The notes beneath the pieces were generated by a model, which saw only the letters and a program-made list of their open reading frames with translations, searched no databases and was not told the DNA's origin. Both the position numbers and the translations under genes were made by a program. From contig JAACTC010000007.1 in the NCBI GenBank assembly GCA_009993635.1, positions 124,001 to 188,000 of the forward strand: DNA of 64,000 bases. The letters run 5' to 3'. This DNA is from Erythrobacter sp. GTDB lineage: Bacteria > Pseudomonadota > Alphaproteobacteria > Sphingomonadales > Sphingomonadaceae. The number at the start of each line of letters is the position of its first letter. Within the stretch, counting starts at the first letter, position 1. Shown in pieces: positions 6,548 to 36,090 of this stretch.

Positions 6548-6563
6548 GCCCAAGCTCTTGGGC
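6548..6563 (+). promoter_or_regulatory. putative late-promoter operator, copy 1
   Basis: GCCCAAG-CT-CTTGGGC is a palindrome with 7-base arms and a 2-base centre, 37 bases before the endolysin gene. The core CCCAAGnTCTTGGGCATG recurs at 15619-15636, before the protease gene. Mu has C-dependent late promoters at exactly these two places (Plys and PI). The site lies just behind the Mor/C-type activator gene. Binding by that protein is inference. Confidence 0.6.
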
Positions 6564-6600
6564 ATGACCTCGATCGCGGGCAATCCATAGAGCAGTCGGC

Positions 6601-7248
6601 ATGGCCGACGAAGAACTCTCTGGGAACACACCAATCGTCGTGAAGGCGTTCACCGACCGCTTCATGCGCGCTTTCGCGCATTTGATCGGGATCGAAGGTG
6701 GCTACGTAAATGATCCCGTGGATCGTGGCGGGGCGACCAAATACGGGATCTCGCTGCGCTTCCTGGTCGCCGAAGGCAAGGTCGACGACGACGGCGACGG
6801 TTTCGCCGACTTCGATCTCGACATGGATGGCGACATCGATGGCGCGGACATTCGCAAGCTGACCATCCTCGATGCGAAAATACTCTACCGCACCTGCTTC
6901 TGGGACCGGCTCGACTGCGGCAGCTTCGAAGAGCCGATCGGCGAAATGCTGTTCGACCAGGCCGTGAATGGGGGGCTGCGGGCAGCGGCCAAACTGCTGC
7001 AGCGCGCGCTCAACGAGATTGCGCGCGAGGCCCGCTTCCGCTCGACTCCGCTCAAGGTCGACGGCGTGATCGGAGAAAAGACCCGGCAGCGCCTGGACAG
7101 CTACGTTGCCCGGTTCGGCGTGGACAGGATCATCGACGCATATCGCGAGGCAGTGAAGGATCGCTATCACGCGATCGTTCGGGCGAACCCCAGCCAGGCA
7201 CGGTTTCTGCGCGGCTGGCTGAACCGCGCAAACAGGCTCGGCTGGTGA
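6601..7248 (+). CDS. GH108-type endolysin with calcium-binding loop
   Basis: 215 residues. The ZliS-type N-acetylmuramidase fold is marked by IEGGYVNDPVDRGGATKYGI with predicted catalytic Glu32, and a C-terminal peptidoglycan-binding region (LKVDGVIGEKTRQRL, about 150-165). Between them, residues 62-84 form an aspartate-rich insert. D72-x-D74-x-D76-G-x-I-x-x-x-D83 is a textbook EF-hand/dockerin loop, and a weaker one precedes it. It degrades host peptidoglycan at lysis. No signal peptide is visible, so export should depend on the holin. The stop overlaps the GTG of the spanin gene. Confidence 0.9.
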   Translation: MADEELSGNTPIVVKAFTDRFMRAFAHLIGIEGGYVNDPVDRGGATKYGISLRFLVAEGKVDDDGDGFADFDLDMDGDIDGADIRKLTILDAKILYRTCFWDRLDCGSFEEPIGEMLFDQAVNGGLRAAAKLLQRALNEIAREARFRSTPLKVDGVIGEKTRQRLDSYVARFGVDRIIDAYREAVKDRYHAIVRANPSQARFLRGWLNRANRLGW

Positions 7249-7937
7249 CGTCGCTGCGCATCCTGGGCGGTCTCTTTACCGCAGGTGAGTGGCTGCTCAG
7301 CGCCCTCTGGAAGCTAGTCGGCGGCTTCTTCGACTGGCTGCGCGCCGACTTTCGGCACGTCGCGATCAGCACGCTGGTGAGCACGCTCGGCTGGGCGATG
7401 CTGGTGACCGTCCCCACCCTGCGCGCCGATCTGGCGACAGCGACTGCGCGGGCGGATCGCGAAGCCAGGAATGCCGACGACTGGATGGCATCGGCAGGTG
7501 CCTGGGAGGCGGAGTTAAACGCCTTCGTCGAGGACATCGTCGCCAAGCAAGCCGCCGCCGCCGAGGCCGATCGCGCCAATGCCGCGCGGGTCGATGCGGA
7601 ATTCGCCGCACTCAACGAAAGGACCGTCGATGACTACGAAGCCCGCCTCGCTCGCAGCCGCGCTGCTGCTGTGCGCCTGCGCAACGACCTCGCCCGAGCC
7701 GAGACCCGCCCCGCCTCCAAAGGTGGAAGTGTCGGCGGTGGCGCGGACGGTGCCGAAGATTACACCGCCCGATGCGCGGCTTTTGGAGCCGCCGATTGTG
7801 ACGGACTTCTTCGAAGCCTTCCGGGCATCCTCGCCGAAGCCCAGGCCAATACCGACAAGCTCCTCGGCCTCCAGCACTACGTCGCCGGATCGACGCTGAT
7901 CGACTTCCAGGGCGAGCCGGAAGGCGCGGGCGAATGA
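7245..7937 (+). CDS. Rz-like inner-membrane spanin (probable)
   Basis: 230 residues from GTG 7245 in a GTGA overlap. An N-terminal hydrophobic region (about residues 10-60, with a membrane segment around HVAISTLVSTLGWAMLVTVP) is followed by a long Ala/Arg/Glu-rich coiled coil (about 60-155) and a Cys-containing C-terminal part (ARCAAFGAADCDG). A small inner-membrane-anchored coiled-coil protein with a lipoprotein gene nested in another frame is the hallmark of Rz/Rz1 spanins, which disrupt the outer membrane in the last step of lysis. It is longer than lambda Rz (153 residues). Confidence 0.7.
   Translation: MTSLRILGGLFTAGEWLLSALWKLVGGFFDWLRADFRHVAISTLVSTLGWAMLVTVPTLRADLATATARADREARNADDWMASAGAWEAELNAFVEDIVAKQAAAAEADRANAARVDAEFAALNERTVDDYEARLARSRAAAVRLRNDLARAETRPASKGGSVGGGADGAEDYTARCAAFGAADCDGLLRSLPGILAEAQANTDKLLGLQHYVAGSTLIDFQGEPEGAGE
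7630..7899 (+). CDS. Rz1-like outer-membrane lipoprotein spanin, nested gene
   Basis: An 89-codon frame entirely inside the spanin gene in another frame, from ATG 7630 with AAAGGA upstream. The N-terminus MTTKPASLAAALLLCACATT is a short signal peptide with a lipobox ending at Cys (LLLC-A-C), immediately followed by a proline-rich stretch (PEPRPAPPPK). Both are defining features of Rz1. The 5' part of the longer open frame (from 7579) lacks a start signal. Nesting inside Rz is the lambda arrangement; this strongly supports the spanin call for both genes. Confidence 0.75.
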   Translation: MTTKPASLAAALLLCACATTSPEPRPAPPPKVEVSAVARTVPKITPPDARLLEPPIVTDFFEAFRASSPKPRPIPTSSSASSTTSPDRR

Positions 7938-8374
7938 GCGAGCCGATGTCGTTTTCGCACTTCCTCCTGGGCTGGGTCCCGGCGCTTGCCGCCAGCACCG
8001 TGGCGCCCGCCGTCGCGCCCCCTCTGGCCGATACGATGCTGGTCGTGATCGCCGGGGTGCCGATCCCGCTCGTCACATGCCTGCTCGGCTTTCTGGGAGT
8101 CGTGATGGCCCGCCCGCTGGCGCGCAAAAGCGAAAGCGCGCTCAGCTGGCCGCTCTTCCTGCTGGTTACCGCGATCATGCTGATCCTGGTCGAGCTGTGG
8201 ATCGTCGAAAGCCGCCCGCGCTGGCTGTTCGCTTTCGTGGTCGCGATCGGCCTCGGCTTCTCGGGCTATTCGCTGATCGAGCTGCTGGGCGACCAGATGC
8301 GCGATTTTCTCAAAGACCTTGCCGGCAAGGCGCGCGGCGCGATCGGCCTCGACAAAGACGGAACGGACACATGA
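7934..8374 (+). CDS. holin-like multi-pass membrane protein
   Basis: 146 residues with about three to four hydrophobic segments (around 10-30, 35-57, 72-90 and 96-115) and a charged C-terminal tail (GKARGAIGLDKDGTDT). ATG 7934 overlaps the spanin stop. Its location in the lysis cassette and topology fit a holin, which would release the signal-less endolysin. No specific holin family is recognised, and it could be another phage membrane protein. Confidence 0.6.
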   Translation: MSEPMSFSHFLLGWVPALAASTVAPAVAPPLADTMLVVIAGVPIPLVTCLLGFLGVVMARPLARKSESALSWPLFLLVTAIMLILVELWIVESRPRWLFAFVVAIGLGFSGYSLIELLGDQMRDFLKDLAGKARGAIGLDKDGTDT

Positions 8375-8805
8375 TCGGACCCTATCTCGAACTCGTCATC
8401 ATCGGGATCATCCTGGTCGGAATTGGCGTGGTGATCTGGCGCGGCGGTGCGGCCAACCCGGTCGGCACCGGCACACTGCAGCACGATGTCAGCAGCATGC
8501 GGCAGGAGCACGTGGCGCACGGGCGGAGATTGAAGAAGCTGGAAGAGGCGACTGCCTCGGCAAAGGACGTCGAGGAGCTGAGCGAGGCTTTGAAGAAGCA
8601 GCAGGCGCGCATCGATTCGATCGAACGGCAGGTAAGCGGGATCGCCGAGACCGGCACCGCAACCGCAGTACGCGTGCGCCACATCGACGAACGGCAGGAC
8701 AAGATGGCGGAGGATATCGCTTCGACGCGATCCGATGTCGGCGGAGCGGTCAAGCAGATCGACCGCATCTACGATGTCCTCGTGCCGAAGGGGATGCAGC
8801 GATGA
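8371..8805 (+). CDS. DUF2730-like (Mu gp25-type) membrane coiled-coil protein
   Basis: 144 residues from ATG 8371. An N-terminal transmembrane segment (ELVIIGIILVGIGVVIW) is followed by a long coiled coil (KKLEEATASAKDVEELSEAL and onward). This architecture and position, between lysis genes and the gp26/gp27 equivalents, match DUF2730, the Mu gp25 family. Function in the phage is unknown. The track frame starting at 8077 adds out-of-context sequence and is not used. Confidence 0.75.
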   Translation: MIGPYLELVIIGIILVGIGVVIWRGGAANPVGTGTLQHDVSSMRQEHVAHGRRLKKLEEATASAKDVEELSEALKKQQARIDSIERQVSGIAETGTATAVRVRHIDERQDKMAEDIASTRSDVGGAVKQIDRIYDVLVPKGMQR

Positions 8806-9110
8806 GCTTCAAGCAGAACCTTGCCGAGGCAATCGCGGCCGAAGCGCGGCTGATCATCCTGCGCGAGCTGGCGGAGCAGACCGACGGGCGGCTCTCGTCG
8901 CTCTCGATCCGTACTGTGCTCGATGTCCGGGGCATCAGCCGCGATAGCGACTGGATCAAGACGCAGCTGCGCAAGCTGCAAGGGCTCGACGCGGTCGATC
9001 TTACCGAAGCGGGATCGACGCTGATCGCGAAGATCACCAGGACAGGCCGCGACCACGTGGAAGAGCGCGCAGTCCTCTCGGGCGTGGCCCGCCCTGCCGA
9101 GGCCGAGTGA
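8802..9110 (+). CDS. Mu gp26-type phage protein (VpaChn25_0724-like)
   Basis: 102 residues. The N-terminal half (ARLIILRELAEQTDGRLSSL, then SIRTVLDVRGISRDSDWIKT) reads as a winged-helix resembling the VpaChn25_0724 family found in the Mu gp26 position. The segment WIKTQLRKLQGLDAVDL is a probable recognition helix and wing. ATG 8802 overlaps the previous stop. It sits just ahead of terminase genes; a DNA-binding role is likely, its precise task unknown. Confidence 0.7.
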   Translation: MSFKQNLAEAIAAEARLIILRELAEQTDGRLSSLSIRTVLDVRGISRDSDWIKTQLRKLQGLDAVDLTEAGSTLIAKITRTGRDHVEERAVLSGVARPAEAE

Positions 9111-9111
9111 G

Positions 9112-9384
9112 ATGGCCGCCACCGCCCTCGATGCTCTCCAGCGGGTCGTCTGCGCGCTGACCTACGATCATATCGAAAGGTCCGATGGGACCGGCGTGAT
9201 CGCGACCGACGAAGATATTCCGCTGCTCCAGCGGAGCATCGGCCAGGACCTGCGCGAGATCGAGGCGCGGCTCGGCCTCAATGCCAAGGGGAACACGATC
9301 CTGTCTGCCATCGCATCCTCGATCGACGAAGCCCTGCTGGCCGCTGCGGAGGCGCAGCTTGCGCTGAAAGGGCTCGCCCAATGA
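9112..9384 (+). CDS. hypothetical phage protein
   Basis: 90 residues, almost wholly helical, from ATG 9112 one base after the previous stop (TGAGATG). It is acidic in the middle and ends in an Ala/Glu-rich helix. The stop overlaps the next ATG by 4 bases. No family is recognised. Its place between the gp26 and small terminase equivalents suggests a packaging-associated accessory protein. Confidence 0.6.
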   Translation: MAATALDALQRVVCALTYDHIERSDGTGVIATDEDIPLLQRSIGQDLREIEARLGLNAKGNTILSAIASSIDEALLAAAEAQLALKGLAQ

Positions 9385-9959
9385 GCGCGCTCGATCGCCG
9401 CCAGGGGCGCGGCCGCCTTTCCTCGATCGACACGCTGCCCGAAGAGGCAGAGGAAGATGTCGTCTGGGCGCTCGAGCAGTTGCGCGATCGCAAGCTGCCG
9501 CAGAGCATCATCCGCGAGGAGTTCAACGCGCGGCTGATCGCCAAGGATATCGAGCCGATCAGCAAGAGCGCCTTCAACCGCTACGCGGTGCGCAAGGCGA
9601 TCCAGTTCCGCAAGATGGACGAGGTGCGCCGGATCTCGAGCGAACTGGTCGAGACGCTGGGCACCGACGCGCCCGACGATGTCACCGTGCTGGTCGCGGA
9701 GATGATCAAGGTCTCGATGTTCAAGATCCTCGAGGACAAGGAACTCGACCCGAAAGCGATCATGGAACTCAGCCGCGCGCTACAATCGACTGTCAGCGCG
9801 CAGCGCGGTTCCGAGGAGTATCGCAAGCAGCTCGAGAAGCGGGTCGCGCAGCAGCTCGAGGAAGCGGCCGATCGGGCCGAGGTCAAGATGCGCGAAGCAG
9901 GCCTGCCGGCAGACCGCATCGCCCAGCTGCGCCGCGACTTCCTGGGGGTGAAGTCGTGA
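9381..9959 (+). CDS. DUF3486 (Mu gp27) small terminase-like protein
   Basis: 192 residues. The opening RRQGRGRLSSIDTLPEEAEE and a following helix-turn-helix (LPQSIIREEFNARLIAKDIE, then PISKSAFNRYAV) are typical of DUF3486, the Mu gp27 family regarded as the small terminase subunit that recognises the packaging start. A long C-terminal helical region (about 90-185) would support oligomerisation. The gene directly precedes a 53-codon gene and the large terminase. Confidence 0.85.
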   Translation: MSALDRRQGRGRLSSIDTLPEEAEEDVVWALEQLRDRKLPQSIIREEFNARLIAKDIEPISKSAFNRYAVRKAIQFRKMDEVRRISSELVETLGTDAPDDVTVLVAEMIKVSMFKILEDKELDPKAIMELSRALQSTVSAQRGSEEYRKQLEKRVAQQLEEAADRAEVKMREAGLPADRIAQLRRDFLGVKS

Positions 9960-10117
9960 AGGACGGAACCTACAACCTCGGATCGGGAAGGAACAGAACC
10001 GCTGTCTTCGCGAAAGTCGACGGCGACACCCTTCTGCTCGGCCCGGGCAGCTCGGATGGGAAGGTCCGGCTCTATCCTGACCAGCTCGCCGCGCTGAGGC
10101 AGCTGCTCTATGGCTGA
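9956..10117 (+). CDS. small hypothetical phage protein
   Basis: A 53-residue frame from GTG 9956 (GTGA overlap with the previous stop) to TGA 10115-10117, which overlaps the terminase ATG at 10110 by 8 bases. The product begins VKDGTYNLGSG and reads as a short beta-rich protein ending in an amphipathic helix (YPDQLAALRQLLYG). Coupling on both sides supports translation. It is too short for the usual gene-length cut-offs. Function unknown. Confidence 0.6.
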   Translation: MKDGTYNLGSGRNRTAVFAKVDGDTLLLGPGSSDGKVRLYPDQLAALRQLLYG

Positions 10118-11807
10118 CCTCGCCGATCTCCCCACCGCAGACCAGGCACCGCCGCGATCCCCTGTCGACGATCTGATCCCGGGCGCGATGCCGCCGCCCG
10201 ATTTCGATCCGCTGGCCGATGGCATCCTGATGGATCACCAGAAGGCGTGGATCGCCGACCAGTCGCCACTGAAGCTGGCGGAGAAGGGTCGCCGAACCGG
10301 CGTCACCTTCGCCGAGGCGCTGGATTCGACGCTGATCGCGGCTGCGGCGAAGAGCGCGGGCGGCGATACGACCTATTACATCGGCGACACCAAGGAAAAG
10401 GGCCTCGAGTTCGTCTCGGTCTGTGCCAATTTCGCCAAGGTGGTCGCGAAAGAGCTGCTCAGCGTCGACGAGTTCCTGTTCGAGGACGTGCAGGAAGACG
10501 GATCGAGCAAGCAGATCACCGCCTACCGCATCCGCTTCGGCTCCGGCCACCAGATCGTCGCGCTATCGAGCAACCCGGCAAACATTCGCGGCCTGCAAGG
10601 GCGCGTAGTGATCGACGAGGCGGCATTCCACCGCAATGTCGCGGCGGTGATCGATGCCTGCAACGCGCTTCTGATCTGGGGCGGCACGATCCGGATCATC
10701 TCGACCCACAACGGCAACCTCAATCCGTTTAACGAGCTGATCAAGGAAACCGAGGCCGGCCAGTACGACTATTCGATCCACACCATCACCTTCGACGACG
10801 CGGTCGAGAACGGGCTCTACGAACGGGTGTGCCTGATGAAGGGCACCGAGCCCACGCCCGAGGGCAAGGCCGACTGGTACCGCACGATCCGCCGCGCCTA
10901 CGGCAGCCGGGTCGAGGCGATGCGCGAGGAGCTGGACGCGATTCCGCGCGAAGGCGAAGGCGTGCTGCTGCCGCTCGCCTGGATCGAGGCCTGCAGCACG
11001 CCAAAATACCGCGTCGTGCGCTGGCAGCCGCCCAAGGAGAAGTTCGGCGGCCGCGATTTCGTCCACTGGCCCAAGGAAGCGCGCGAAGCCGAAATGGCGG
11101 CGTTCCTGCGGCGCGAAGTTGCCCCGCTGCTGGAGGATCACGCCGAGAAGAGCCGCACCTGGTTCCTGGGCGAAGACTTCGCGATGCGGCAGGACCGCAC
11201 CTGCCTGCCGATGGGCTTCGTCGACCAGCAGCTGAAGCGTCACGTCCCGCTGATCGTCGAGCTGCGCGAGTGCCCATACGACCAGCAGAGACAGGCACTT
11301 TTCTGGCTGGTCGACCTGGTCGCGGAGCTGGGGCGGTTCGGCAGCGGCATCCTCGATGCGAACGGCAATGGCATGGCGCTCGCCCAGGAAGCGGCCCAGC
11401 GCTACGGCCCCGAGCGGATCGTCGAGCTGATGCCGTCTGACCAGTGGCGGCGCGAGACCGGCCCACGCTTCCGCGCAGCCTTCGAGGATGGCACGATCCT
11501 GATCCCGGCCGACAAGGACATTCGCGACGACCTGCGCCAGCTGCAGATGATCGGCGGCGTCGCCAAGATGCCCAAGAGCATCCGGACCGAGGGCACCGAC
11601 GGCGGCAAACGCCACGGCGACGCGGCGGTGGCGCTGTGGAACTTTCATGCGGCCAGCTTCAACGAGACACTGCCGGTCTACGCCTACGAGCCGGTGCGCG
11701 GTGTTGCACGCGGGGCGATGGACGGGCCCGATAACGACGATCCGGACGATCGCGGCTGGTGGCGGCCGCCGGTCGGGGTGCGGATCGGAAGCGGGGGACT
11801 GATATGA
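10110..11807 (+). CDS. terminase large subunit (Mu gp28 type)
   Basis: 565 residues. The ATP-driven DNA packaging motor and headful nuclease. A Walker A variant, EKGRRTGVT (about residues 58-66), and Walker B RVVIDEAAF with D169-E170 mark the ATPase. The C-terminal RNase H-like nuclease has acidic motifs in LGEDFAMRQD, ILDANGNG and KRHGDAAVAL. Length and position fit Mu-type terminases. The stop overlaps a tiny following frame. Confidence 0.92.
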   Translation: MADLADLPTADQAPPRSPVDDLIPGAMPPPDFDPLADGILMDHQKAWIADQSPLKLAEKGRRTGVTFAEALDSTLIAAAAKSAGGDTTYYIGDTKEKGLEFVSVCANFAKVVAKELLSVDEFLFEDVQEDGSSKQITAYRIRFGSGHQIVALSSNPANIRGLQGRVVIDEAAFHRNVAAVIDACNALLIWGGTIRIISTHNGNLNPFNELIKETEAGQYDYSIHTITFDDAVENGLYERVCLMKGTEPTPEGKADWYRTIRRAYGSRVEAMREELDAIPREGEGVLLPLAWIEACSTPKYRVVRWQPPKEKFGGRDFVHWPKEAREAEMAAFLRREVAPLLEDHAEKSRTWFLGEDFAMRQDRTCLPMGFVDQQLKRHVPLIVELRECPYDQQRQALFWLVDLVAELGRFGSGILDANGNGMALAQEAAQRYGPERIVELMPSDQWRRETGPRFRAAFEDGTILIPADKDIRDDLRQLQMIGGVAKMPKSIRTEGTDGGKRHGDAAVALWNFHAASFNETLPVYAYEPVRGVARGAMDGPDNDDPDDRGWWRPPVGVRIGSGGLI

Positions 11808-11929
11808 GGCCCCTAGAATGCTTCTGGCGCGTCCAGCGTCTCCTGACACCGGATTTTCCGGCAACCCACGTCTCAGACCCTCTCAAATCGCCCTCAGGGC
11901 ATCATTCCCCCTCACCGGAGACAGCCTGA
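11804..11929 (+). CDS. possible 41-residue phage protein
   Basis: ATG 11804 overlaps the terminase stop (ATGA) and the frame ends in a TGA sharing one base with the portal ATG at 11929. The product begins MRPLECFWRVQRLL and ends in a Ser/Pro/His-rich tail. Precise coupling to both neighbours is the only argument for translation; codon use is ordinary. The 121-base space may equally be untranslated leader for the portal gene. Confidence 0.4.
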   Translation: MRPLECFWRVQRLLTPDFPATHVSDPLKSPSGHHSPSPETA

Positions 11930-13494
11930 TGGCCGAACTCGTCGATCATCGCGGCCAGCCCTTGCGCAAGGCCGTACTGAAGAAGGAAGTGGGCGGACCG
12001 ACACTGGCGGGCGTGCGGCAACCCATCGCAGGCTATCCCGGAGACGGGCTGACGCCGGTAAAGCTGGCGCAGATCCTGCGCGAGGCCGACCAGGGCGAGC
12101 CGCTGGCCTATTACGAGCTGGCGGAGACGATCGAGGAACGCGATCTGCACTATGTCGGCGTGCTGGGCACCCGCAAGCGTGCGGTCAGCCAGGTGGACGT
12201 GACGGTGGAAGCCGGGGGCGAGGACGGCCTCGACCAGCGCAAGGCCGACATGGTCCGCGAATGGCTGAGCCGCGACGAGCTGACGAAGGAGACCTTCGAC
12301 ATGCTCGACGCGATCGGCAAGGGGAACTCCTGGACCGAGATCGTCTGGGATACCAGCGAAGGGCAATACCGCCCGCAGCAGCTGGTCACGCAGGACCCGC
12401 GCTTCTTCCGCTTCGACCGCGACGGCCGCACATCGATGCTGCGCGGCGGCGTGACCGGCAAGGATCCCGACGAGCCGCTGCCCGCGTTCAAGTTCATCGA
12501 GCTGCACATGCAGGCGAAGTCGGGCCTGCCGGTGCGATCGGGCCTCGCCCGCCTCGCCATGTGGAGCTGGATGTTCAAAGCCTACACCCAGCGCGACTGG
12601 GCGATCTTCACGCAGACCTATGGCCAGCCGATCCGGGTCGGCAAGTATCACCCGAGCGCGACCGACGAAGATCGCGCCACGCTTTACCGCGCGGTCGCCA
12701 ACGTCGCGGGCGACTGTGCCGCGATCATTCCCGCAGGGATGGAGATCGACTTCGTCGAGGCGGACAACCTGGGCGCAGGAGCCGCGCTGTATGAGAAGCG
12801 GGCCGACTGGCTCGACCGGCAAGTCTCCAAGGCGGTGCTCGGCCAGACCAACACGACCGACGCGCAGGCGGGCGGGCTCGGCTCCGGTCAGGCCAATGTC
12901 CACAACGACGTGCGCGAGGATATCGAAACCGCCGATTGCAAGGCGCTGGCCGCGGCGCTCAACCGCGACCTGGTGCGGCCGTGGTGCGATCTCGAGTTCG
13001 GTCCGGCGAAGACCTATCCGCGCCTGGTCATCGCGCGGCCGCCGCAGGAAGACCTGAAGATGTTCTCCGAAGCGATCGCACCCTTCATCGATCGCGGGCT
13101 GCGCGTTAGCCAGAGCACGGTCCTCGACAAGTTCGGCCTCGAGAAGGCGGGCGATCGGGACGATGTTCTGCGACCCTCCGGCCCGCAAGCCGCGCCGATC
13201 GCCGTTTCGCCAGAGACCCGGCAGGCGCTCCAGGCGCAGGAGAGCAAGCCTGCTGAACACCCCGCCTCGCTGATCGCACGGCAGATGGCCGAGAAGGCAG
13301 ATCCCGCGATCCGGGCGATGGCCGAAACGATCGAGGCGATGATGGAACGTGCCGGCAGCCTCGAGGAGCTGCGCGAGATGATCCTCAGCGGCTTCCCGGA
13401 CGTGGATGAGAGCGATCTGAGAGACGTGCTCGAGCAGGGCTTCGTCGCCGCCCACGCCGCCGGCCGGAGCGATGCCGAAGACGAGAGTGCGTGA
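11929..13494 (+). CDS. portal protein (DUF935, Mu gp29 type)
   Basis: 521 residues from ATG 11929, preceded by CCGGAG; the frame is open back to 11818 but that extension has no start signal. The sequence (PLAYYELAETIEERDLHYVG, then GTRKRAVSQVDVTVE) matches the DUF935 portal family. Further support is RDWAIFTQTYGQPIRVGKYH and a late QTNTTDAQAGGLGSG segment that recurs in these portals. The dodecameric portal forms the DNA entry vertex. The last 100 residues are acidic and helical. The stop shares a base with the next small gene's ATG. Confidence 0.9.
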   Translation: MAELVDHRGQPLRKAVLKKEVGGPTLAGVRQPIAGYPGDGLTPVKLAQILREADQGEPLAYYELAETIEERDLHYVGVLGTRKRAVSQVDVTVEAGGEDGLDQRKADMVREWLSRDELTKETFDMLDAIGKGNSWTEIVWDTSEGQYRPQQLVTQDPRFFRFDRDGRTSMLRGGVTGKDPDEPLPAFKFIELHMQAKSGLPVRSGLARLAMWSWMFKAYTQRDWAIFTQTYGQPIRVGKYHPSATDEDRATLYRAVANVAGDCAAIIPAGMEIDFVEADNLGAGAALYEKRADWLDRQVSKAVLGQTNTTDAQAGGLGSGQANVHNDVREDIETADCKALAAALNRDLVRPWCDLEFGPAKTYPRLVIARPPQEDLKMFSEAIAPFIDRGLRVSQSTVLDKFGLEKAGDRDDVLRPSGPQAAPIAVSPETRQALQAQESKPAEHPASLIARQMAEKADPAIRAMAETIEAMMERAGSLEELREMILSGFPDVDESDLRDVLEQGFVAAHAAGRSDAEDESA

Positions 13495-13652
13495 TGGCCC
13501 GGCAGGCACTCATTCACTACACGGCGGGGTGCCATGATTGCGGCGCAAGCTGCGCGAGCAGGAACGCTCTTGCTTGGGCTCACAATCACTCTAACCGCCA
13601 CGGGCACTGCGTTGAGCTGTCGCTCGGCTACCTCGTACGCCCCGAAAGATGA
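13494..13652 (+). CDS. tiny Cys/His-rich (zinc-binding-like) phage protein
   Basis: 52 codons from ATG 13494 (overlapping the portal stop) to TGA 13650-13652, overlapping the head-protein ATG 13649 by 4 bases. The sequence holds H-Y-T-A-G-C-H-D-C-G-A-S-C followed by A-W-A-H-N-H-S-N-R-H-G-H-C, an arrangement of cysteines and histidines able to bind zinc. Coupling and residue pattern make a real gene likely despite its size. Confidence 0.65.
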   Translation: MARQALIHYTAGCHDCGASCASRNALAWAHNHSNRHGHCVELSLGYLVRPER

Positions 13653-14908
13653 GCGACGAGCACCCCTCCTCGACCTCGGGCGTCTTCCGTCGCCCCTTTA
13701 CCGAGCAGGTCGCCTTCTTCCGGCGCAAGCTGCGCAATCTCGTGCCGACCGAACGGTGGGACGACCTGGTGCGCGCCGAGCACGACGACGCCTTCATGGT
13801 CGCGGGTGCGGTCAAGGCCGACCTGCTGACCGATCTCGCCGCAGCGGTCGACAAGGCGATCGCCGAAGGGCGCGGGCTCGAGGAGTTCCGGCGAGACTTT
13901 CGCGATATCGTGAAGCGCAACGGGTGGACCGGGTGGGCGGGCGAAGGCAGCGTCAAGGGCGAGGCGTGGCGCGCGGGCGTGATCTATCGCACCAATTCCT
14001 ACACCAGCTATGCCGCCGGTCGCTTCGCCCAGCTGCAGGCGGGCGATTTCAAGTACTGGGTCTATCGCCACGGCGGTAGCCTGGAGCCCCGGCCGGTCCA
14101 CCTCGACTGGGACGGGCTTGCCTTGCCACCGGATCATCCCTTCTGGACGACGCACTACCCGCCCAGCGACTGGGGCTGCAGCTGCTATGCCGTCGGCGCG
14201 CGAACAAAGGCGGGCATTCGCCGGGTGGGCGGGGATTCGAACAAGACGCTGCCGGAGAACTGGCGCGAGCTCGATCCGAAGACCGGCGCGCCGATCGGCA
14301 TCGGCAAAAACTGGGATTATGCCCCCGGCGCGAGCGCGGCCGAGGATGTCAATGCAATGGCCGACAAAATCGGCAACTGGGATCACCGGGTCGCCAAGGC
14401 ATTCATGGACGCGTTGTCGCTGGAGCGCGCGGAGGCGCTTTCCCGCGCCTACCGCCGGCTGCCCAGCACGCGCGACGATGCGCGGCGGATTGCCCAGCGG
14501 GTCTGGGACGGGCGCGACGATGGCGAACCCTCCCGTACGCTCGGGATGCTGACGCGGGGGCAGGTCGCCGCGATCCGCACCGGTGAAAACCCGCTCGACG
14601 CGGAGCACTTCGATTTCTCGCTCACTCACAACGAAGTCCGCCACGTGCGATCGAGCCATGGCGACCTGGCCGAAACGCGGCGTGGCCAGCGGGCGGTCGG
14701 CCCCGCAGACTTCGCCCTCCTGCCGCAGCTGATCGACCAGGGCAGTGCGCCTCGCTTCGTCGGGATGTCCGATCGACACAAGAGCCCGGTCTACGAGATC
14801 ATTGCCAGGATCGATGGCGAGGAGTGGGTGACGCGCTGGGTCTACCGCCGCAGGCGTCGCACCTTGACGCTGCAGAGCTTCTTCGTGCGGACGGGAAAGA
14901 GAAGCTGA
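13649..14908 (+). CDS. Mu gpF-type head morphogenesis protein with C-terminal PBECR-like nuclease domain
   Basis: 419 residues. The N-terminal two thirds are the SPP1 gp7/Mu F minor head family. They carry the conserved run FKYWVYRHGG, RPVHLDWDGLALP, HPFWTTHYPPSDWGCSCYAV, a His/Trp/Cys signature. Residues about 304-419 form a separate beta-rich module. Its motifs (SLTHNEVRHVRSSHGD, the GPADFALLP segment and a final TLTLQSFFV strand) resemble the phage Barnase-EndoU-ColicinE5/D-RelE-like nuclease (PBECR) group that is often fused to phage structural proteins. Head assembly is the primary role; the C-terminal domain may be an injected RNase. Confidence 0.87.
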   Translation: MSDEHPSSTSGVFRRPFTEQVAFFRRKLRNLVPTERWDDLVRAEHDDAFMVAGAVKADLLTDLAAAVDKAIAEGRGLEEFRRDFRDIVKRNGWTGWAGEGSVKGEAWRAGVIYRTNSYTSYAAGRFAQLQAGDFKYWVYRHGGSLEPRPVHLDWDGLALPPDHPFWTTHYPPSDWGCSCYAVGARTKAGIRRVGGDSNKTLPENWRELDPKTGAPIGIGKNWDYAPGASAAEDVNAMADKIGNWDHRVAKAFMDALSLERAEALSRAYRRLPSTRDDARRIAQRVWDGRDDGEPSRTLGMLTRGQVAAIRTGENPLDAEHFDFSLTHNEVRHVRSSHGDLAETRRGQRAVGPADFALLPQLIDQGSAPRFVGMSDRHKSPVYEIIARIDGEEWVTRWVYRRRRRTLTLQSFFVRTGKRS

Positions 14909-14981
14909 TCGCCTTCGCCTTACGTCCGGGACGAACCGGTTATTGGCCGGCAGGCTCATGCGATCGGGAAGGAACTTAACC

Positions 14982-15473
14982 ATGTTCGATGTCGAGTTCA
15001 ACGCAGAGGCATCACGTAATGCACTGGCGCGTGCGATGCGCGAGCTGGAGAACATGACGCCGGTCTACCAGGATATTGCCGATTACCTGGTCGATGCGCA
15101 CCGCCAGCGCTTCATCGAGGGCCGCGATCCCGACGGCAAGCCCTGGGCGCCCAAGAAGCAGTCTACGCTCGATCGCTATCGCCGCCTCGGTTACGGCAAC
15201 CTGCGCCGCCCGCTGATCGGCCCTGGCAGGGCGCTGTCCCGCCAGATCGCCAGCTTCGTCAGCGCCAACGGCGTCGTGATCGGATCCGCGCTGATCTATT
15301 CGCGCGTGATGCAGGAAGGCGCAGCCAAGGGCGCCTTCGGTAGCGACAGCAGGGGCAATCCGATCCCTTGGGGAACCATCCCCGCCCGCCGTTGGCTGGG
15401 CCTTTCCCAGCAGAACGAGGCCGCGATCGTCGAGATCGTCGACGAGCACCTGGGCGACGCGATCGACGAATAG
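14982..15473 (+). CDS. gpG-type phage virion morphogenesis protein
   Basis: 163 residues from ATG 14982 behind GGAAGGAAC; the in-frame start at 14943 has no such signal. The pattern RFIEGRDPDGKPWAPKKQST, then PLIGPGRALSRQI and IPARRWLGLSQQ, is the signature of the Mu G / P2 S family (phage virion morphogenesis). In Mu, G acts in head or head-tail completion. A 73-base gap precedes it and a 197-base gap follows. Confidence 0.88.
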   Translation: MFDVEFNAEASRNALARAMRELENMTPVYQDIADYLVDAHRQRFIEGRDPDGKPWAPKKQSTLDRYRRLGYGNLRRPLIGPGRALSRQIASFVSANGVVIGSALIYSRVMQEGAAKGAFGSDSRGNPIPWGTIPARRWLGLSQQNEAAIVEIVDEHLGDAIDE

Positions 15474-15670
15474 CCAGACAGGGACGAACCGGCGCGATGC
15501 GCGGCCTCTTCAGCTTCGCATTGCGCTTTGGCGCGCGTCTGTGGCAGTCAGCAGGCGTGGCGAGCGCGAATCGCGTGCCACCGCATCCCCGGCGTTTTCC
15601 CCGATGATCGACAGCCTTCCCAAGTTCTTGGGCATGCCTTCGGCGCACCTGCGCTGCCAATCATCATCGG
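15474..15670 (+). other. intergenic region before the protease gene
   Basis: A space of 197 bases, the largest inside the prophage. It starts with GGGACGAACCGG (15481-15492), also found at 14928-14939 before the preceding gene. It contains a 36-codon frame at 15497-15607 without convincing support and, nearest the protease, the CCCAAGnTCTTGGGCATG motif. It most likely carries a late promoter comparable to Mu PI. Confidence 0.55.
15619..15636 (+). promoter_or_regulatory. putative late-promoter operator, copy 2
   Basis: CCCAAG-TT-CTTGGG followed by CATG repeats the palindrome found at 6549-6566 with one mismatch in 18 bases. It lies 35 bases before the GTG of the protease/scaffold gene, the location of the C-dependent promoter PI in Mu. 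Regulation by the Mor/C-type protein is inferred. Confidence 0.6.
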
Positions 15671-16762
15671 GTGACGACAGCAACCTCCCCCCTTGCCCTT
15701 TGCGCGGCCCAGGCCCTTCCCGCCGAACCGGCTGATGACGGCACCGAATGGCTGCACCTGCTACCCGGTGGCGGCAGGGTGGAGACGCAGGACGGGCGCG
15801 GGCCCTACACGGTGCCCAGCTACGACGCGATCGTAACCGCCTTCCAGGCGGCGGGCCACCAGCCGCTGGTAGTCGACGAATGCCACGCGACCGATCTTGC
15901 CGCACCGAATGGCGGCGCAGCTCCGGCGCGCGGATGGATCGTGGCGCTTGAAGCGCGCGAAGACGGCATCTGGGGCAAGGTCGAATGGAACTCCGCCGGC
16001 CGCCAGCTGCGGCAGGACAAGGCCTATCGCGGCATTTCGCCCGCCATCCTTCACGACAAGGCGAAGCGCGTCCTCGGGATCGCGCGCGCCAGCCTGATCA
16101 ACCTACCGAACCTGAAGGGGCTGACCGCCCTGCACCAAGAGGAAGTGTCAATGGACTGGAAAAAGATGCTGATCGAGGCCCTCGGCCTCGAGGCAGATGC
16201 TGACGACGAGGCCATCAAGGCCGCTGTCGAGAAGAAGCTCGGCATGGGCGAGGAGGCGAAGCCGACCGAAGAGGCACTTCAGTCTGCGCTTCAGGCGCAG
16301 GCCAAGCCGATCGCTGCCGCGCTCGGCCTGAAGTCCAACGCTTCGAGCGAGGCGATCGTTACCGCGATCGGCCAGCTGAAGTCGGGCGATGACGACGTGG
16401 TTGCCGCGCTGCAGTCCGAGCTGACCAGTGTCAGCACGCAACTCACCGCGCTGCAGTCCGAACGTGCGGGCGAAAAGTCGGCTGCAGTGATCGACCAGGC
16501 AATCCGCGAGGGCCGCGTGGGCGTGAAGGCCAAGCGCGAAGAGTACCTGGCGATGCACCAGGAGAACCCGACGCGCACCGAAGCGATCATTTCCGCCTTG
16601 CCAGCAGTCGCTTCGCTGGCGCTGCAGCATCGCGAGCAGCCGCAACGCTCGGCCGACGAGCTGAGCGAAGGCGACACCAGCGTGATCGCGCTGATGGGCA
16701 TCGACGCCGACAAGTTCAAGGAAACCCGCGCCGCAGAGCTCGGCGCAAAGGAGGCTAGCTGA
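15671..16762 (+). CDS. Mu I-type capsid maturation protease/scaffold
   Basis: 363 residues from GTG 15671. The N-terminal half matches Mu-like prophage I protein: a beta-rich protease region with GTEWLHLLPGGGRVETQDGR, a VVDECHATDLAAPNGGAAPA segment and GISPAILHD. This region ends near residue 155. The second half is a helical, Gln/Glu/Ala-rich scaffold. The protease processes the scaffold during prohead maturation. As in Mu, where Z is an internal in-frame product of I, an internal start is visible at 16151. Confidence 0.88.
   Translation: MTTATSPLALCAAQALPAEPADDGTEWLHLLPGGGRVETQDGRGPYTVPSYDAIVTAFQAAGHQPLVVDECHATDLAAPNGGAAPARGWIVALEAREDGIWGKVEWNSAGRQLRQDKAYRGISPAILHDKAKRVLGIARASLINLPNLKGLTALHQEEVSMDWKKMLIEALGLEADADDEAIKAAVEKKLGMGEEAKPTEEALQSALQAQAKPIAAALGLKSNASSEAIVTAIGQLKSGDDDVVAALQSELTSVSTQLTALQSERAGEKSAAVIDQAIREGRVGVKAKREEYLAMHQENPTRTEAIISALPAVASLALQHREQPQRSADELSEGDTSVIALMGIDADKFKETRAAELGAKEAS
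16151..16762 (+). CDS. internal in-frame scaffold protein (Z-like) start
   Basis: ATG 16151 lies in frame within the protease gene and follows a strong GAGGAAG site 6 bases upstream. It would produce a 203-residue helical protein beginning MDWKKMLIEALGLEADADDE, equal to the scaffold half alone. Mu makes its scaffold Z this way from gene I. The ribosome-binding site and the domain boundary coincide, which supports real use of the start. Confidence 0.7.
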   Translation: MDWKKMLIEALGLEADADDEAIKAAVEKKLGMGEEAKPTEEALQSALQAQAKPIAAALGLKSNASSEAIVTAIGQLKSGDDDVVAALQSELTSVSTQLTALQSERAGEKSAAVIDQAIREGRVGVKAKREEYLAMHQENPTRTEAIISALPAVASLALQHREQPQRSADELSEGDTSVIALMGIDADKFKETRAAELGAKEAS

Positions 16763-35259: not shown

Positions 35260-35356
35260 TCTCGCTACTACGCCACCTTCTACCAACGTCGGTAACCTAC
35301 TCAGTAGCAGTTACGTCACGTCCGCCCGCCAGCGCGCTGAGAGCGCCACGCCTTTC

Positions 35357-35448
35357 TCCTCCCCCTTAAGGGGGAGGCTGGGTGGGGGTGTGCCGAGGCC
35401 GTTGGCGTAGAGCCCCCACCCCCGCCCCCTCCCCCAAGGGAGGGGAGG
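35357..35448. repeat. palindromic extragenic repeat, copy 1
   Basis: The sequence contains CTCCCCCTTAAGGGGGAG followed by GGGTGGGGGTG, then after about 25 bases the complementary CCCCCACCC and CTCCCCCAAGGGAGGGGAG. The ends pair into a long imperfect hairpin. The same structure recurs at 35974-36082. It resembles REP/MITE-type elements. Confidence 0.75.
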
Positions 35449-35477
35449 CATTTAGCTGCGACGCCTCGATGAGGAAT

Positions 35478-35958: not shown

Positions 35959-35973
35959 CTTCGCGATGATATT

Positions 35974-36082
35974 CCTCCCCCTCAAGGGGGAGGTTGGGTG
36001 GGGGTGTACGGCGAGAGTGGCTTGGGCGCGCCTTGCCATAGGCGCAGTACTCCCCCCCAACCCCTCCCCCAAGGGAGGGGAG
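35974..36082. repeat. palindromic extragenic repeat, copy 2
   Basis: CTCCCCCTCAAGGGGGAG, then GGGTGGGGGTG, a central spacer of about 45 bases and complementary CCCCCCAACCCCTCCCCC with AAGGGAGGGGAG at the end. Both outer arms match copy 1 almost exactly whereas the centres differ. It overlaps the space between two convergent genes and may terminate both. Confidence 0.75.
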
Positions 36083-36090
36083 TTGCTAGG

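Follow-up and report, generated by a model that had tools for sequence, protein, structure and literature searches.

The stretch of DNA analysed here, referred to as the window, comprises 64,000 nucleotides from Erythrobacter sp. (assembly GCA_009993635.1, contig JAACTC010000007.1, positions 124,001 to 188,000 of the forward strand). It carries a Mu-like prophage in which a gene for a Mor/C-type late activator is followed by a palindrome and then by an endolysin gene, while a second copy of the palindrome precedes a gene for a Mu-like I protease/scaffold protein (Table 1). These are the gene neighbours described in an earlier note on this DNA, which proposed a simple two-site late regulon, as in phage Mu, controlled by one activator. 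We report an analysis of the palindromes, of the activator and of the equivalent loci in related phages, which makes it most likely that each palindrome is the operator of a late promoter (Plys and PI, respectively).

Table 1. Features of the late-activator locus, in coordinates of the window.
Feature	Position	Strand	Basis
Mor/C-type late activator gene, 126 aa	6162..6542	+	phrog_836, E 1.8e-17; AlphaFold2 model
Site 1, 16-bp dyad GCCCAAGCTCTTGGGC, predicted Plys operator	6548..6563	+	5 nt past activator stop; paired dyads in relatives
Predicted -10 of Plys, TAGAGC, A at +26 from dyad	6588..6593	+	A at +26 in 59/67 site-1 sequences
Endolysin gene, GH108 + PG_binding_3	6601..7248	+	ATG +38 from dyad; predicted leaderless or nearly so
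Site 2, 16-bp dyad TCCCAAGTTCTTGGGC, predicted PI operator	15618..15633	+	paired dyads; geometry
Predicted -10 of PI, CAATCA, A at +26 from dyad	15658..15663	+	A at +26 in 61/67 site-2 sequences
Mu-like I protease/scaffold gene	15671..16762	+	PF10123, E 7e-47; GTG +38 from dyad; predicted leaderless or nearly so

The two copies, CCCAAGCTCTTGGGCATG at 6549-6566 and CCCAAGTTCTTGGGCATG at 15619-15636, differ at one base in 18, as had been claimed, and in each of them perfect 6-bp arms flank 2 bases. With up to three mismatches allowed, CCCAAGnTCTTGGGCATG is found twice in the window (the search returned four rows, two of which are the same two places on the opposite strand), against a chance mean of 0.13 and a maximum of 1 in 100 shuffles. 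Across the 2.9-Mb genome CCCAAGNNCTTGGG is exact at these two places only and the 14-base palindrome CCCAAGnnCTTGGG has no further exact copy; with one mismatch, CCCAAGNNCTTGGG occurs at 4 places, compared with 5 for a reversed control pattern. A third site, equivalent to that of P or mom, was sought in the window and none was outstanding, the relaxed pattern CCCAANNNNTTGGG (up to two mismatches) giving 18 matches where 21.3 were expected. Both 18-base copies end 34 bases ahead of a start codon (ATG at 6601 and GTG at 15671), close to the 35-37 bases of the earlier note. The 16-bp dyad, at 6548-6563 and 15618-15633, is a better-drawn unit than the 18-base word and is used below, with positions counted past the dyad.

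The window activator belongs by sequence to the Mor/C family: it is the single match in this genome (E 0.001) to phrog_836, 'late transcriptional activator', which is also matched by Mu C and Mor (2.1e-11 and 1.2e-10), though the best family of both is phrog_532. The Pfam Mor profile matches the window protein below the cut-off (E 0.017) and is matched at 0.1 or better by 20 of 28 scanned family members, the best at 7.9e-7. In the AlphaFold2 model of the activator (mean predicted local distance difference test score 89.4) the C-terminal helix-turn-helix (HTH) is formed by helices 86-93 and 97-105, and residue 101, an Asp, sits in the second of these. Proteins of the Mor/C family have a dimerisation domain at the N terminus and an HTH at the C terminus, and the model shows the latter. 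Compared by sequence with the activator profile, the Mor structure 1rr7 gives a weak match only (E 0.063). Foldseek returned nothing at E 0.001 or better for the model, and VIA-align found only common HTH domains (Z below 6) among the matches listed; the matches listed for the two programs are mostly HTH portions of other families, Mor being absent from them. The absence of Mor from these lists is no argument against membership of the Mor/C family. Two Roseobacter Mu-like phages are reportedly without Mor (PMC5488378); a divergent activator of the phrog_836 type could have escaped notice there.

The word CCCAAG was not found in the sites of relatives, and no activator type but that of the window was seen with it; the search was therefore recast to ask for a dyad in the same place, whatever its letters. 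Loci with an activator and a protease were gathered from IMG/VR and GTDB, 253 activator loci reducing to 192 distinct ones, 98 of which also hold an I protease gene; a scan of genome contigs contributed 3 loci, two of them seemingly identical to L061 and L062. A paired 16-bp dyad (score at least 25), with one member directly after the activator gene and the other shortly before I, is present in 68 of these 98 loci compared with 2 of 294 controls, in which the site-2 region was subjected to a plain base shuffle. One pair (L261), having neither a -10 nor a start codon, was judged false and removed by hand, leaving 67 pairs. The fixed threshold of 25 was used for this later set; a first set of 33 loci had been partly hand-picked from 46 distinct pairs scoring at least 24, with 13 of the 46 omitted (L153, L088 and L070 were dropped as spurious) and the lower-scoring L163 and L165 added.

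The three nearest relatives that have both sites also repeat a palindrome at the two places, spelled otherwise than in the window. The L060 palindrome reads CATGCCCGCC[TT or AT]GGCGGGCATG at both places, L061 has a 26-base identical pair around GGCCGCCATGGCGGTC and the pair of L062 is GCCCGCTTCGGCGGGC; the classes of dyad encountered include GCCCGC, GGCCGC, CCGCAA, CCGCAC, CCCCAA, GGTGAC and CCGGAC. Among 24 representatives drawn from the initial 33 loci, 11.7 of the 12 arm bases agree within a phage and 6.7 across phages, an agreement reached by none of 20,000 re-pairings, and for the ten most divergent representatives the corresponding figures are 11.7 and 5.6. The arms are alike within a phage and unlike between phages, which is the pattern predicted for a trans-acting regulator. 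The search of related prophages that the earlier note had suggested thus has a positive outcome, though in a changed form: the position and the pairing are kept, while the letters themselves vary with the activator, so that lack of conservation, which the note had named as a refutation, holds for the letters if taken literally.

A second prophage locus (L074), in a genome of the same genus, encodes a lysin 82% identical to that of the window together with a different activator. The dyad before this lysin, GGAACGCGTTCC, is unlike that of the window and recurs 8.8 kb downstream, so that L074, a natural module swap, points the same way. Genome G100 contains L074 and also L075, further prophage loci that each have a Mor-like gene; in both, the gene after the activator resembles site-1 genes of the window type (the lysin in L074 and, in L075, a gene for a protein whose start resembles that of L135), whereas activator and dyad differ. 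A second activator clade (L203, L204, L191 and L287-L363, with K-x-W and VR-x-Y/W-L helices) has mostly dyads of the CCGCAA..TTGCGG type at the same two places.

The dyad letters also change with the putative recognition helix. In the 61 rows compared, dyad base 2 was C in 30 and G in 1 of the proteins with Asp at residue 101, C in all those with Glu (14), Gly (4), Ser (1) or Thr (1), and G in 9 and C in 1 of those with Asn. A preference of Asp or Glu for C and of Asn for G is chemically sensible. On a tree of the activators built with two helix residues masked, the Asn status of residue 101 changes 7 times and base 2 (C/G) changes 7 times, and 6 of these changes fall on shared branches, a number that none of 200,000 branch-length-weighted draws reached. 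This test kept 61 of 68 rows, seven being dropped because they had no standard dyad or belonged to the Tyr class; the L061 dyad was taken from its pair in place of the automatic pick, L162 (Thr) was scored as C although its pair can also be read as G, and the automatic dyad of L116 is doubtful. When all well-filled columns were scanned against dyad bases 1-8 (46 of the 61 rows), residue 101 with base 2 came first, with z 7.8 and mutual information 0.44.

In the window phage Asp101 accompanies GCCC as the outer dyad bases (TCCC at the start of site 2). The following residue is Tyr, where most of the clade has Lys or Arg, and at bases 5-6 the dyad has AA in place of GC; a link between this Tyr and the inner AA may be suggested from this one case. 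Tyr at the code position is seen in L278 and L280 (GVYK), which have GCCTCC..GGAGG[CT] past the stop codon, and in L281, L282 and L093 (WVYK, YVYQ), which have CCTGAA..TTCAGG there, in both groups at site 1 only.

The distance from dyad to gene is nearly constant. An in-frame start codon for I lies at +36 to +40 in 67 of 67 pairs (49 of 49 representatives), with 2, 29, 32, 3 and 1 pairs at +36, +37, +38, +39 and +40, respectively, and hence 61 of 67 at +37 or +38; some loci have additional in-frame starts elsewhere. The search for dyads had covered the 170 bases ahead of the estimated I start and the 30 after it, and made no use of the distance itself. The commonest A past the dyad is at +26 at both sites (59/67 at site 1 and 61/67 at site 2; 41/49 and 43/49 of the representatives), and at site 2, 28 of the first 33 loci have C at +25 and 31 have G at +23. 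We take the A at +26 to be the mark of a -10 element, the second base of which would fall at -11. Provided that +1 is 7 bases beyond the -10, the centre of the dyad would then be at about -44. At neither window site was a promoter of the sigma-70 type, with a -35, called. The 16-bp element recognised by Mor of Mu, in which a G/C-rich spacer of 6 bp separates the 5-bp repeats, is centred at -43.5 and replaces the -35 (PMC4390567). The geometry of the window sites, a 16-bp dyad near this distance with a -10 and no -35, is that of a Mor/C promoter, the start point being predicted.

A -10 at +25 to +30 would place the start of transcription near +37, on the start codon of I or within about 3 bases of it. 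Both lys and I of the window begin at +38, and the mRNAs of I and, in this phage, of lys may thus be leaderless or nearly so. Pairing of the Shine-Dalgarno (SD) type before I is at background (mean -4.1 versus -4.3 kcal/mol, with -6 or better in 3 of 33 cases). Stronger pairing is seen ahead of T, a capsid gene (mean -6.4, with -6 or better in 14 of 29; paired p 0.0002 for the weaker pairing of I), and ahead of F (mean -6.1, 11 of 21; p 0.014). Open frames of at least 50 codons begin at +36 to +40 in 19 of 67 site-1 sequences, against 1-9 of 67 for each of nine other 5-base intervals; by its sequence the lysin of the window fits a start at the site-1 geometry, and not every site-1 gene does.

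The reading that we favour, at a probability of roughly 0.87, is that the two palindromes are operators of the late promoters Plys and PI, and that both promoters would be turned on by the Mor/C-type activator, whose gene lies directly before the first of them. From the observed sequences, their pairing, their geometry and their co-change with the activator we infer the following course of events. The activator, as a dimer, would occupy the 16-bp dyad, which stands in for the -35 with its centre near -44, and would recruit RNA polymerase to a weak -10 that lies 24 bases downstream. Transcription would then begin at the start codon, or within about 3 bases of it, and the I and lys mRNAs would be translated leaderless or nearly so. 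Specificity would reside in helix residues that read the dyad, Asp or Glu at 101 going with C at base 2 and Asn with G.

A number of observations weigh against this reading or parts of it. No pair at the threshold was found in 30 of the 98 loci, and none in a search of the Alteromonadaceae phage B23. With regard to the code, residue 101 was noticed by eye before all columns were scanned, residue 70 with base 6 ties with it in z (mutual information 0.20), and a sign test restricted to well-supported independent pairs has 4 pairs in favour and 1 against (p 0.375). L119 has Asn and no GGCC dyad, its helix Asn occurring with GCTGCC..GGCAGC, and in its sister L116 no standard dyad was found; a compact GCCCGCGCGGGC lies past the L116 stop codon. 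SD-like pairing is also weak before the terminase gene (9 cases) and, because of this, a missing SD alone is no demonstration of a leaderless mRNA. At the second site of L074 the next ATG is some 60 bases on, behind a GGAG, and some transcripts of this kind would therefore not be leaderless.

The main rival reading is that the same dyads are intrinsic terminators of the activator and G-gene transcripts, their likeness being that of two similar hairpins. An RNA hairpin can indeed be drawn at both window sites (-9.4 and -5.9 kcal/mol) and at the 67 pairs (means -13.0 and -12.1 kcal/mol), and within the 12 bases that follow, 14 of 67 site-1 and 18 of 67 site-2 sequences have a run of at least 4 T, a further point against operators, with RR1-B, L062 and L161 resembling textbook terminators. 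Neither window site, however, combines a G+C-rich hairpin with a T run, there being no such run and no terminator called at either. Nor does a T run discriminate, since a T6 run is also present in the spacers of the Mu lys and mom promoters (PMC4461284). Terminators need not match each other and two sites read by one protein would; the likeness at two places, the spacing of 36-40 bases, the -10 and the co-change with the activator helix are all unexpected of terminators, and we regard this account as unlikely. L062, L161 and L365 have long T runs past their dyads and yet keep the promoter geometry, and in some relatives the element may be both terminator and promoter.

Dyads of 14-16 bp are typical of many repressors, and the palindromes could instead be operators of a phage repressor or of a host regulator. 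We consider this slightly less likely again, as the dyad letters co-change with the recognition helix of the activator on six branches, similar lysins with different activators have different dyads, and the genome is without a further exact copy. Chance, or the recent duplication of one 18-mer, would account for there being just two copies, 9 kb apart, but sits poorly with an expectation of 0.13 and with the same pairing in other letters in 68 of 98 loci; we hold it to be very improbable.

The number of sites was compared among related records. The pattern GCCCGN6CGGGCATG was scanned over 18 records of the GCCCG type, some of them fragments and with the 12-kb record G791 left out, and is found at two within-phage places in 17 of 18 and at a single one in G788, the second site there being a variant; the pattern has one extra match elsewhere in the G100 chromosome, and its reversed control has no match in the 18 records. 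The proposal of a two-site late regulon is thus borne out by two sites in the window and two in 17 of 18 related records.

The likeness to Mu that had been drawn holds for lys and I, which are two of the four C-dependent promoters of Mu (PMC4461284), and not for the set of four (lys, I, P and mom), as the window has two sites. The gene order is shared, in that C is followed by lys, I follows G and promoters precede lys and I, but where the window has two sites and one phrog_836 gene, Mu has a Mor distinct from C and four promoters that depend on C. The system would therefore be a reduced form of Mor plus C with four late promoters, and the tail genes would then have to be reached by read-through from PI, or have other promoters. 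Mu has a purine-rich SD-like stretch just before the lys and I starts and none is evident in the window. When Mu was scanned for a related pair, the top row was the 10-bp TCCCGCACCT and no strong palindrome pair was found; the likeness of lys and I in Mu is thus a 10-bp match, the identity of both matches being presumed. The 16-bp dyad that replaces the -35 of the Mor-dependent middle promoter Pm, centred at -43.5 (PMC4390567), has its counterpart in the dyads predicted at about -44 here. The window differs from the Mor/Pm system in its letters, in serving late rather than middle genes and in having two predicted target promoters.

Two isolated Mu-like phages share the arrangement. In Rhodobacter phage RC1 the I gene begins at +38 past CCACAAACCGTTGTGG, a dyad that has a weaker partner after the activator (pair score 23). 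Rhizobium phage RR1-B has identical dyads in both places, with -10-like CAATGT and CATGGT at the same distance from the dyad centre as elsewhere. They differ from the window in their dyad letters and recognition helices, and RR1-B also in having a T run and an annotated I start further down, at +54.

These comparisons support a variant of the Mor/C late regulon in the window, with two sites, phage-specific G+C-rich dyads and probably leaderless late mRNAs. More generally, we lean towards the view that many Mu-like phages have two-site late control, a co-changing code (at least 6 switches), rigid spacing and a leaderless mRNA for the protease and often for the lysis gene. A search of the literature on operators or palindromes in Mu-like late promoters and on leaderless late mRNAs, to which the older papers on Mu late promoters were external, yielded no report of the pairing. 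Mor and C of Mu have so far been studied as single cases, and here 67 natural activator-operator pairs are aligned. If the reading is correct, they would amount to many natural orthogonal activator-promoter pairs with a readable specificity code, so that the use of late promoters could be predicted from sequence alone, and leaderless late mRNAs, which Mu seemingly lacks, would be expected. Exchanging a single residue, together with one base pair in each half-site, would put the DNA specificity of the family directly to the test, and such pairs could act as orthogonal switches in laboratory strains.

Elsewhere in the window, at 35355-35450 and 35970-36085, lie two copies of a G/C-rich inverted-repeat element some 600 bases apart, with CTCCCCCTTAAGGGGGAGG or CTCCCCCTCAAGGGGGAGG, plus CCCTCCCCCAAGGGAGGGGAG.

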